From: Clostridia bacterium
GTDB lineage: Bacteria > Bacillota > Clostridia > Christensenellales > CAG-1252
DNA length: 64,000 bases
Assembly (NCBI GenBank): GCA_017394805.1
Contig: JAFPXC010000013.1
Location: 1-64,000, forward strand
Direction of reading: 5' to 3'
The number at the start of each line of letters is the position of its first letter. The stretch's first letter is position 1. The translations under genes were made by a program, and so were the position numbers. Shown here in pieces: positions 41,906 to 52,528 of this stretch. The notes below the pieces were generated by a model. It was not told where the DNA came from. It searched no databases and saw nothing but the letters and a program-made list of their open reading frames with translations.

Positions 41906-41950
41906 TGGCGCTCGTGAAGGGAGTCGAACCCCCGACACCCGCCTTAGGAG
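41906..41950 (-). pseudogene. 3' half of a split tRNA-Arg(CCU) gene (left attachment site)
   Basis: On the minus strand the sequence starts in an anticodon loop (CTCCTAA) and continues with a T-arm (GGGGG-TTCGACT-CCCTT), the 3' acceptor strand CACGAGC, a discriminator G and an encoded CCA. There is no 5' half next to it. The 9-base CCTTAGGAG (41942-41950) recurs at 52488-52496. The acceptor strand pairs 7 of 7 (one G-U) with GTTCGTG at 52522-52528. Confidence 0.8.
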
Positions 41951-42095
41951 AAATCCTTGATTTTGAAAACGATATAAAACGTTGATTTTCGTCAAATATC
42001 TTACGTTTTAAGCCGCTTTATGCGAGCAAAAACGCCTGTTATTTTGCGTTTTATCAAACAAGTTTCGCTTTTCAAAACAACTTTTATGTCTTTTA

Positions 42096-42112
42096 TATAC
42101 CGATTTTATACC
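42096..42112. repeat. TATACCGATTTTATACC, left-end element repeat
   Basis: Two ATACC units spaced by 11 bp lie 150 bp inside the left attachment core. A near-identical pair occurs inside the right end at 52378-52395. Confidence 0.45.
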
Positions 42113-42122
42113 AATATCTGCT

Positions 42123-43169
42123 TTAATCTATATCATCAAACATATCCAATCCCAGCGGATTAGTGAAATTTTCGATTTCATCGTTGACACAATCGAGAAA
42201 GTATTGGTCGTAATTCCAATTAGCTGATTCAATATCCTCGTTGAAGATAAGTTTGCAGTACTCGTCGAAGAATAAAGCAATACCATCCAACAGACTAAGA
42301 ATGAGTTGTTCGTTCAGGTCAACAAAGTAAATCGCTAAATCGCCTTGTGCATACTGAGCTTTATTTTTCAAGACCTCAGGATAGTTGCTATAAAGAGTGC
42401 TATATGTAGAAAGGCTATTGTGTTTAATGAAATTCCAAATGCAATACATTTTATCGTAATCTTTGAATCCAGCAAGCTTGGATATGGATTCCTGCGTATT
42501 TCCTTTAAATGTGTACAATGCACTTCTATCGAATCTGTCTTTTTCGTATCCATTTTGAGTTAAAACATATACCGTGATTGCCTCTATTCTGGAAACCATT
42601 AAATGAAAGAACTGGGCATACATACTTGTTTTGAGTCCAAAACGTTTGTGTTCGGCTTCATGCTCTGCCATCATAGTTGCCCATTGAGCACGAGCATTTG
42701 CGGCTCCGGGGCCGCTGATCCCACACATAAGTTTATAATCGTCCCCGGGCGTGTATTTTTTCGACTTGATCTTGGCGATTGCGGCGTCAACAATGGGTTT
42801 GTGTTCATTTTTCCATTTGCTTTTGATTTCTGCAATTTCGCTCCTGAAAATATTGCAATTATAATCCGTATAATACCTTTTGGTCGGATAAAAGTAATGA
42901 GTCTTTCTTTTATCCATTATTTCTTTTTGTTGCTCACCCAAGCCTATTCTTTTATCATAGCGAATCGGATCTATTTTTATGCGTCTGTCTTTGCCGAAAA
43001 TAAACACACCGTAAAAACGTGTGTCGGAATATGGGTCACTTATCCCGTATTTTGCTAAAATCGCATTCTTCTTTGCTATTTCGTTTTCGGGAGCATCGTT
43101 GACATAATAGTCATCCATTGCCCGATATAGTTCTTGATTCATAAACCGTTTTGTTCTTTCTCTTTTCAT
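42123..43169 (-). CDS. Uncharacterised protein, possibly a diverged HEPN-fold protein
   Basis: A 348-residue soluble protein that I do not recognise. The middle (about 160-260) is helical and contains AEHEAEHKRFG, MVSRIEAITVYVL and MYCIWNFIKHNSLSTY. The last looks like a HEPN motif (RNxxKHN) in which the Arg is replaced by Trp, so catalysis would be lost or the likeness is chance. The C-terminus is acidic. I place the start at the ATG at 43169, which follows AGAAAGG. The earlier ATG at 43199 lies inside a terminator-like hairpin. A promoter at 43442-43471 and a ~250-nt structured region precede it. Confidence 0.55.
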   Translation of the reverse strand: MKRERTKRFMNQELYRAMDDYYVNDAPENEIAKKNAILAKYGISDPYSDTRFYGVFIFGKDRRIKIDPIRYDKRIGLGEQQKEIMDKRKTHYFYPTKRYYTDYNCNIFRSEIAEIKSKWKNEHKPIVDAAIAKIKSKKYTPGDDYKLMCGISGPGAANARAQWATMMAEHEAEHKRFGLKTSMYAQFFHLMVSRIEAITVYVLTQNGYEKDRFDRSALYTFKGNTQESISKLAGFKDYDKMYCIWNFIKHNSLSTYSTLYSNYPEVLKNKAQYAQGDLAIYFVDLNEQLILSLLDGIALFFDEYCKLIFNEDIESANWNYDQYFLDCVNDEIENFTNPLGLDMFDDID

Positions 43170-43188
43170 ACCTTTCTCTAAAAACTGA

Positions 43189-43214
43189 GGCATTCCCATC
43201 AGAGAATGCCTCTG
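43189..43214 (-). terminator. Terminator-like hairpin between the leader and the 348-residue protein
   Basis: GAGGCATTC and GAATGCCTC form a perfect 9-bp stem. On the minus strand it is followed by AGTTTTTAG. It could end a short RNA made from the promoter at 43471 and let only some transcripts reach the gene. Confidence 0.65.
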
Positions 43215-43435
43215 CTCGATTGATTATCAAGCGTTTTACATAAGACAACACCACGCTAACCATACTCAGATTCGGTAATAGCAATCCGCAAACCGACTTC
43301 TTGCGATAATACAATAATTGCGGGACGCAAGCGTGCGGCAATACTGCTTATCAGCCTTTTGTTTTAGCACTATTATCTACTCTGCCGTGTTTATAGGCGA
43401 ATGCGGGGCAAGACGTATCCCCGCAAGCCTTATGT
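43189..43435 (-). ncRNA. Possible structured small RNA or leader, ~245 nt
   Basis: The stretch between a consensus promoter and the terminator-like hairpin has no ORF of note but several stems. GCGGGG/CCCCGC around 43411-43433 opens the transcript, and other GC-rich stretches (TTGCCGCACGCTTGCG) lie near 43320-43345. A self-contained promoter-stem-terminator unit just before an unknown, perhaps HEPN-like, gene resembles RNA-antitoxin layouts. Expression and structure are untested, so confidence is low. Confidence 0.35.
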
Positions 43436-43441
43436 ACAAAT

Positions 43442-43471
43442 ATCTTATCATAAGGCCTTAGTTTTTGTCAA
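43442..43471 (-). promoter_or_regulatory. Promoter with palindromic spacer
   Basis: On the minus strand TTGACA (43466-43471) and TAAGAT (43442-43447) are 18 bp apart. The spacer contains the perfect palindrome TAAGGCCTTA (43451-43460), a possible operator. Confidence 0.6.
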
Positions 43472-43555
43472 GTGCGGCTGATTTATGGAACGTTAATCGC
43501 AATGGAAAAATGTGTTTTTCAACAAAATAATTCGTGGAAAAGTGTTATTTTGATA

Positions 43556-43584
43556 TTGATTTCCCATTGTATTTATGCTATAAT
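43556..43584 (+). promoter_or_regulatory. Promoter of the DUF4143 ATPase gene
   Basis: TTGATT (43556-43561) and TATAAT (43579-43584) with a 17-bp spacer lie 30 bp before the start codon at 43615. Confidence 0.55.
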
Positions 43585-43614
43585 GTGGGCGAAGATGTAT
43601 AAGGGAGGTTGAAT

Positions 43615-51445: not shown

Positions 51446-51820
51446 ATGATTATTGCAAAAGTAATTAAAATTATTGATGAGTATCAAGTCGTTATTAATA
51501 AAGGCATAAAAGCTGGAGTGAAGAAGGGCGATAGATTTTTGGTCTATAAAATAGGAGAAGAAATGAAAGATCCGGATACGAACGAAAGTTTAGGAAATTT
51601 GGAGATTGTATGTGGAGAAGCTGTAGCGAAACATGTTCAAGACAAAATGACGACTCTAGAATCTGATTTGTATGAAAGCAGTGCAACAAAAAGAATAATC
51701 CAAAAAGGAGGCTACACGTCACTTTTGGGATCTCAAATTGAAGAAATAGAAAATCCAAGACAAATAAGAAAGCCTTTAAAAGAAATATCGACGGAGTGTG
51801 TTGTTAAACAAATAAGCTAA
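51446..51820 (+). CDS. Small beta-barrel-like protein paired with the membrane protein
   Basis: A 124-residue protein. GIKAGVKKGDRFLVYKIGEEMKDPDT and LGNLEIVCGEAVAKHV match the small beta-barrel found in FlgT-like C-termini and related proteins (pattern aGvkxGdxfxvy). The C-terminal ~50 residues are unrelated and polar. The ATG at 51446 is eight bases after AAGGAG; the GTG at 51437 lies inside that site. It forms a two-gene unit with the upstream membrane protein. Function unknown; it could be a ligand- or nucleic-acid-binding partner. Confidence 0.65.
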   Translation: MIIAKVIKIIDEYQVVINKGIKAGVKKGDRFLVYKIGEEMKDPDTNESLGNLEIVCGEAVAKHVQDKMTTLESDLYESSATKRIIQKGGYTSLLGSQIEEIENPRQIRKPLKEISTECVVKQIS

Positions 51821-51849
51821 TATAATTTGCCTAATAAAGACTATTTATT

Positions 51850-51930
51850 GTGAAAACCATCTTATACACCTTTGCCGATGGGCATAAAGAAGAATTGGAA
51901 GTAACGGACGAAGTCGCGGCGGTCGTATAA
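51850..51930 (+). pseudogene. N-terminal remnant of a sigma-factor-like mobile-element gene
   Basis: A GTG-started 26-codon frame reads YTFADGHKEELEVTDEVAAV and then stops. Mobile elements of Clostridia often carry a sigma-70-like gene that begins in this way (TYTFADG..SEVEVS.E..AVI). Only this beginning remains. Confidence 0.4.
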
Positions 51931-51964
51931 AAGTAGAACGAGTAAGAGTTAAGCGAAATAGGAG

Positions 51965-51993
51965 AGTGTCTCAAAACGAGGCACTTTCTTTTC
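51965..51993 (+). terminator. Terminator after the two-gene cassette
   Basis: AGTGTCTC pairs with GAGGCACT around AAAAC and is followed by TTTCTTTT. Confidence 0.75.
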
Positions 51994-52024
51994 GTCTAAA
52001 AAATTTTAATAAATTTTAAATTTG

Positions 52025-52245
52025 TAACCCCTTAAATGCTATTTTTTGCCCCTTTATTATAGAGGGACAAAAAAAGTTTCGGGCGCAACCTTGAATTATT
52101 GCAATTTTTAACCCTTTTAAGTAGAGAGAAAAAATTAACTTAGGGACTTAATTATTCTTCAAATTTAGCCCTTTTAGGTAGAAGGATAAAAAAGTTTGAA
52201 AAATAACCTTATATTTTCTATCAAAATAGCCTGTTTAGCATCATT
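52025..52245. repeat. AT-rich imperfect repeats between cargo and tRNA-Arg
   Basis: A roughly 60-bp unit recurs about three times. CCCTTTATTATAGAGGG (52050), CCCTTTTAAGTAGAGAG (52112) and CCCTTTTAGGTAGAAGG (52170) are each followed by A-rich sequence and GTTT/ACTT. Shorter relatives flank them at 52026 and 52230. No gene is present. Confidence 0.5.
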
Positions 52246-52285
52246 TTATAAAAACAAGTCAACCAGAAGGCTGACCTGTCTTGTT

Positions 52286-52362
52286 TGGCGTTCCCGGCGG
52301 GAATCGAACCCACAGTCTACCGCTTAGGAGGCGGTTGCGTTATCCTATTACGCTACGGGAAC
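52286..52362 (-). tRNA. tRNA-Arg (anticodon CCU), complete
   Basis: On the minus strand a 77-nt cloverleaf folds fully. Acceptor GTTCCCG/CGGGAAC (7 bp), D-stem GCGT/ACGC, anticodon stem ACCGC/GCGGT with loop CTCCTAA (anticodon CCT), and T-stem GTGGG/CCCGC (one G-U) with loop TTCGATT. The discriminator is G and CCA is encoded. It reads AGG codons. It lies inside the element's right end and differs in sequence from the split host tRNA, so it is a carried replacement rather than a duplicate made at insertion. Confidence 0.95.
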
Positions 52363-52377
52363 ATTTTTTTAATTTTT

Positions 52378-52395
52378 TATACCGGTTTTTATACC
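52378..52395. repeat. TATACCGGTTTTTATACC, right-end element repeat
   Basis: This is near-identical to the pair at 42096-42112 and lies ~95 bp inside the right attachment core. Possible arm-type binding site for the recombinase. Confidence 0.45.
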
Positions 52396-52487
52396 GATTT
52401 TGTTTTACTATTTACATTTTACCGCAAAACACGCATTTCTGAGCATATTTTGCTATATATTTTCCGTTTACAGCGGATAGAGCGCTC

Positions 52488-52528
52488 CCTTAGGAGGCGG
52501 CCGCTCTATCCAACTGAGGTACACGAAC
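52488..52528 (-). pseudogene. 5' half of the split tRNA-Arg(CCU) gene (right attachment site)
   Basis: On the minus strand GTTCGTG-TA is followed by a D-arm (CCTC-AGTTGGATA-GAGC) and the anticodon side GCCGC-CTCCTAA, and then tRNA likeness stops. The acceptor strand pairs with the 3' half at 41910-41916. Joined, the halves make 77 nt, but the anticodon stem pairs well only if shifted by one base and the first D-stem pair is C-C. The fragment may therefore be decaying, or the left half was replaced earlier. Confidence 0.75.

Follow-up and report, generated by a model that had tools for sequence, protein, structure and literature searches.

What becomes of a tRNA gene when an island enters it and does not rebuild it? 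The question is posed by the first 64,000 nucleotides of contig JAFPXC010000013.1 from a gut Clostridia bacterium (order Christensenellales), the whole stretch that was analysed and that we call the window. Two orphan halves of tRNA-Arg(CCU) lie there on the minus strand: a 5′ half, or fossil, at 52488-52528 (GTTCGTG...CTCCTAAGG) and a 3′ half at 41906-41950 (CTCCTAAGGCGGGTGTCGG...CACGAGCGCCA). Between them is an island, 41951-52487, here termed island B, with a guanine-cytosine content of 0.31–0.44 against 0.51–0.60 in the flanks. Inside it, on the same strand, an intact replacement tRNA-Arg(CCU) occupies 52286-52362; it is the one tRNA that ARAGORN reports for the window, called as tRNA-Arg(CCT). 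A first-pass annotation had read the locus as one element that splits one tRNA gene and supplies another. Its coordinates, its strand assignment, the sequence common to both halves (CCTTAGGAG on the plus strand) and the intact gene all stood up to re-examination. We nevertheless think that two or more integrative islands, each replacing the tRNA, are probably stacked here at tRNA-Arg(CCU).

The case begins with the halves themselves. When they are joined, the acceptor strands pair at 7 of 7 positions with one G-U, as had been annotated. The D stem pairs at only 3 of 4 positions and the anticodon stem GCCGC/GGCGG at 2 of 5, reaching 5 of 5 only with a 6-nt loop, and ARAGORN returns tRNA-???. 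Because the joined stems mispair and ARAGORN cannot name the product, the two halves very probably derive from two tRNA genes, to judge from their sequences. The alternative that survives best is a single insertion, in which island B split one tRNA-Arg(CCU) whose 3′ half later gained one base. The full acceptor pairing fits this, and removal of one G from the 3′ half does bring the anticodon stem to 4 of 5 pairs (arithmetic on the sequences). We consider it unlikely, given the D-stem mismatch and what is seen in a genome of the same genus, G002, where the two types of tRNA occur apart. The G002 5′ fossil, GTTCGTG..., resembles the window 5′ half, and its true 3′ partner, on another contig, is a different one (CACGAAC, 5/5 in the anticodon stem). 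The window 3′ half instead aligns gap-free with an intact GCTCGTG...CACGAGC tRNA of G002 (GTCGG GTGTCGG...CACGAGC) and shares its unusual variable region; that tRNA adjoins an integrase end, and beyond the window 3′ half there likewise come a similar terminator and an integrase end of 73% identity. Descent of the halves from two different tRNA genes, which the first-pass annotation had itself named as fatal to its reading, is thus where the comparison points. Another relative, G001, has a tRNA like the intact one of the window, upstream of enolase and beside an integrase remnant. G188 resembles the window: of its two 3′ halves, the outer one pairs with the 5′ half, and the inner one is left without a partner.

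The genome that holds the window (2.04 Mb in 33 contigs, ∼100% complete) was searched with the Rfam tRNA model, with sequence patterns and by protein. Among its 47 Rfam tRNA matches, ARAGORN names one CCU anticodon, that of the replacement tRNA, so that this gene is the sole intact one for CCU that the searches found; the first-pass annotation had left this as a proviso. Arg tRNAs with UCU, ACG and CCG anticodons are also present. A search of the window for a further 3′ half returned the two known places and one chance-like site with 3 mismatches.

The junction on the tRNA-promoter side carries a readable attachment site. Its crossover core, CTCCTAAGG, is 9 bp long and lies on the minus strand at 52488-52496, at the boundary of island and host DNA. 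Inverted core-type sites surround it over 52475-52511, GGATAGAGCG at 52475-52484 and CGCTCTATCC at 52502-52511; the outer arm is the D-arm of the tRNA and the inner arm is island DNA, its ..TATCC recurring in relatives. Tandem GGTATAAAA arm-type repeats lie between core and replacement tRNA (52375-52395, minus strand) at a spacing kept in relatives, and a second tandem GGTATAAAA-type pair (42093-42112, minus strand) is the left arm of the island's attachment site (attP). The 64 kb contain just these two pairs, one per island end, and they match the attP of the integrase family treated below. Read from the junction inward, the order in attP is core, the D-loop GGATA in inverted orientation (..TATCC), tandem GGTATAAAA-type repeats, tRNA.

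By the usual rule (Islander, PMC4383910), the attP of a tRNA-targeting island restores the 3′ half, and under that rule the extra tRNA would be unrelated cargo. We find this very improbable here, since past the core the island reads GAGCGCTCTATCC... and holds no tRNA 3′ half, likewise in the relatives, and since the carried tRNA invariably shares its anticodon with the target and sits just inside the junction. In window and relatives alike, then, the earlier description was correct in that neither half is rebuilt and a complete tRNA with the same anticodon is carried instead.

We turned the window attP into a pattern, core-N9-TATCC-N68-90-GGTATAAA, and scanned 396 genomes of the order; 9 matched, and a reversed control gave 0. 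Besides the window's own genome, a tRNA 5′ half precedes the pattern in 7 of 8 genomes and a complete tRNA-Arg(CCT) follows it in 7 of 8. In G178 the replacement tRNA has itself been cut again. Scanning IMG/VR with the same pattern yielded 2 matches, neither in a tRNA context, which we take as chance. One locus of the order, L277 (G326:C24), has the attP motif and a complete tRNA-Arg(CCU) with no recognisable tRNA 5′ half before the motif and an orphan 3′ half ∼1.4 kb off; it is possibly a minimal island or a scar.

The same layout recurs widely. A search for the CCU 5′ half matched 181 of the 396 genomes, at least 20 of them with two or three sites close together. In these the first site breaks off at CTCCTAAG, and the last is in most cases an entire tRNA-Arg(CCU). 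Pooling the 5′-half, integrase and attP searches gave 27 loci, the window and 26 others, where a 5′ half ends in CTCCTAA(G/A) and, 33–252 bp behind the cut, there is a tRNA-Arg(CCU) that is complete and differs from the cut one. A control search for tRNA-Arg(UCU) in the same genomes found matches in 311 and zero close pairs. Stacks were seen in G269, G285 and G303, each of two or three sites, and in G030, G224 and G178. In six relatives (G002, G188, G154, G253, G383 and G078), 3′ halves elsewhere in the genome restore pairing at 7/7 acceptor and 5/5 anticodon positions, and all the matched half pairs from these six are perfect tRNA-Arg(CCT). In a sample of the phylum, a usable match was present in 25 further genomes, none of which had a pair; this number is too small to limit the pattern to the order.

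A filled and an empty site complete the comparison. A single contig of G311 holds the 5′ and 3′ halves, separated by 50.7 kb; G329, a member of that genus, has an intact tRNA whose two flanks match the G311 island flanks (∼75% identity over 1.1 kb and 266 bp). The island in G311 encodes a 55%-identical integrase and the defence proteins AbiE, DrmA-like, Mokosh-like and Fic. An origin by tandem tRNA duplication, with one copy decayed to a 5′ fragment, would suit the close spacing of fragment and intact gene but is scarcely credible, being contradicted by this filled and empty pair, by fragments that always end at one anticodon-loop base, by sequence past the fragment that is the shared att motif and not tRNA, by partner 3′ halves that lie far off with complementary stems, and by the UCU control without such pairs. 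The annotated idea that the element destroys a tRNA and supplies another accordingly holds for the class, on the strength of its recurrence and of the filled and empty sites, and is not supported for the window as a single split gene.

Two of these genomes merit further mention. The complete 50.7-kb island (G311:C2:131797-182530; L278/L284/L285) also has UvrD/NERD-type genes and is a good type specimen. Besides a complete tRNA, G078 gave six further CCU 3′-half matches (L218, L231, L232; contigs C38, C42); those inspected are orphan 3′ halves, which suggests many past insertions there.

G217 and G269 served to define the integrase family; in both, a full-length 472-amino-acid tyrosine integrase gene ends ∼45 bp from the replacement tRNA and is convergent on it. 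An integrase likewise adjoins the replacement tRNA in most related loci that the integrase search recovered. Its relatives occupy 14 genome loci: seven have the order 5′ half, complete tRNA-Arg(CCU), integrase, one has the complete tRNA only, and L237 has orphan 3′ halves as in the window. Present in the elements of relatives, this integrase survives in the window only as a truncated copy outside island B (41117-41854, plus strand), the C-terminal ∼240 of 472 amino acids, convergent with the 3′ half and apparently the remnant of an older island. Outside cellular genomes, IMG/VR gave only a 27% relative, plasmid matches were distant, and a phage collection held one full-length match, MT835493.1. 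That entry, deposited as 'Bacteriophage sp.', shows the arrangement of 5′ half, complete tRNA-Arg(CCU) and integrase (L289 22185-22469); we do not accept it as a phage, as no phage structural genes were seen in the open reading frames (ORFs) examined. At L177, L182 and L186 the integrase beside the replacement tRNAs, across gaps of 43–52 bp, is of a second type that looks unrelated (C-terminus HSLRHSSTTYKLKLNHGDLKATQGDTGHA), hinting at an independent origin of the same layout.

We infer the following order of events. An island would carry a short attP core (CTCCTAA(G), ∼8–9 bp) with a complete tRNA-Arg(CCU) close inside. Its tyrosine integrase would recombine this core with the resident gene for tRNA-Arg(CCU), at the anticodon loop, and so cut that gene in two, the 5′ half staying at the host promoter and the 3′ half moving to the far end, with no rebuilding. 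The island tRNA, 33–252 bp behind the cut, would take over, perhaps from the old tRNA promoter, and would form the next target, so that islands pile up and 5′-half fossils remain. In the window, an older island A would be represented by the integrase fragment at 41117-41854 and by the 3′ half of its tRNA at 41906-41950; island B, bringing a type III restriction-modification system, two candidate defence genes and the tRNA at 52286-52362, would have entered A via A's tRNA. Loss of the short stretch that separated the outer 5′ half from that of A itself would then leave B flanked by mismatched halves. The simplest account of that loss would be recombination between neighbouring cores.

Excision between the present cores would yield a misfolding chimera and no normal tRNA-Arg(CCU). 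For this reason the earlier suggestion that the island is hard to lose is plausible for the copy in the window; simple copies should have the original gene restored on excision. We put at about even the broader proposition that the site renews itself, each island destroying tRNA-Arg(CCU) and installing its own as both rescue and next target, so that defence islands ratchet into one locus, ordered fossils are left behind, and halves from mixed layers block clean excision.

Several observations weigh against the stacked-island account or parts of it. A protein search of the window's own genome found no intact member of the integrase family, and island B itself has no integrase, so its present mobility is unproven. 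This makes it probable that B is fixed or can move only in trans. Two halves were not found in that genome: the lost 5′ half of A's tRNA and, for the outer tRNA, its far 3′ half. The presence of tRNA-Arg(UCU) leaves the need for a CCU tRNA open to doubt. Gaps and integrase types vary by lineage, and there may be several independent systems. Most of the genomes are draft metagenome assemblies, in which repeats can misassemble. As to the cell's dependence on the island tRNA, AGG codons could be read by tRNA-Arg(UCU) through wobble, and AGG occurs at ∼4–5 per 1000 codons in selected ORFs; the replacement tRNA may be required for survival.

How the replacement tRNA is expressed may be read from its surroundings. 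A sigma70-like promoter, TAGACA-17-TACAAT (52541-52569, minus strand; a consensus match only, with 2 such sites found against 1.1 expected by shuffling), lies upstream of the 5′ half and is likely the original tRNA promoter. We found no sigma70-like site between the 5′ fossil and the intact tRNA, and in relatives with 33–55 bp gaps there is scant space for a separate promoter. The site upstream, the absence of one in between and the short gaps in relatives together suggest that the replacement tRNA is read from the old promoter.

The principle is already known from actinobacteriophages as tRNA-dependent lysogeny (Guerrero-Bustamante & Hatfull 2024, PMC10865867), whose defining features are a tyrosine integrase, a short core lying in a tRNA that is not rebuilt, and a carried tRNA of the same isotype; we found nothing closer in the literature. 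The two agree in an attB overlapping a host tRNA gene, a short core only (here the 9-bp CTCCTAAGG) with no tRNA rebuilt, and arm-type site pairs flanking attP. They differ in that ours are defence islands whose examined cargo shows no recognised genes for phage structural proteins, in clostridial hosts, at tRNA-Arg(CCU), serially stacked with fossils, and with the tRNA built into the attP region, 33–252 bp from the core; the tRNA gene that actinophage Fionnbharth carries overlaps a further gene of the phage, and a promoter of its own has been tested (PMC10865867). With canonical tRNA-site islands (PMC4383910) ours share a tyrosine integrase, the anticodon-loop crossover class and a far end marked by a piece of tRNA (41906-41950 in the window; orphan 3′ halves in the relatives), whereas the attP of ours has no gene-restoring tRNA fragment and the whole gene is replaced. 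As described in PMC10865867, prophage Lj965 of Lactobacillus johnsonii reportedly leaves its tRNA target unrebuilt and encodes a cognate tRNA; it differs in being a prophage and a single case. Tycheposons, in the second-hand description of PMC10872708, are likewise tRNA-bordered cargo islands with a tyrosine recombinase.

What appears new is that defence islands which are not phages use this principle, that attP has the tRNA built in, and that the islands stack serially. The mechanism shown in 2024 for actinophages is thereby extended to defence islands in many species of one clostridial order, a partial answer to those authors' question of how common tRNA-dependent lysogeny is elsewhere. Stacking also explains mismatched orphan tRNA halves flanking one island, makes a single gene hold a stratified record of past invasions, and suggests a route by which a defence island becomes locked into a genome; the att signature allows such islands to be located.

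The cargo of island B is mostly on the plus strand. From the replacement tRNA inward come two ORFs of no family (51437-51820 and 50922-51440), the type III restriction subunit Res (48225-50834) and methyltransferase Mod (46594-48213), a small ORF (46258-46593) between mod and a DUF2971 gene (45140-46261; candidate defence family PDC-S31), and an AAA/DUF4143 gene (43609-44979; candidate defence family PDC-S01); a 358-amino-acid ORF of no family is on the minus strand (42123-43199). No phage structural genes were seen in the examined cargo of the window and G311, and the examined cargo matches defence families.

Beside the replacement tRNA, imperfect AT-rich repeats around '...TTTTA.TAGAGGGA.AAAAAA' lie at 51990-52240, with similar motifs after the tRNA region of G001. 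Across the enolase neighbourhood the order varies. The 5′ fossil (L077 10177-10216 against 52488-52528 of the window) is downstream of enolase in G002 and upstream, divergent, in G000, and the intact tRNA of G001 is upstream of enolase: a local rearrangement. Enolase and a major facilitator superfamily (MFS) transporter adjoin in G001; in the window a helix-turn-helix gene and a gene for a 2866-amino-acid repeat protein lie between them (54196-63139).

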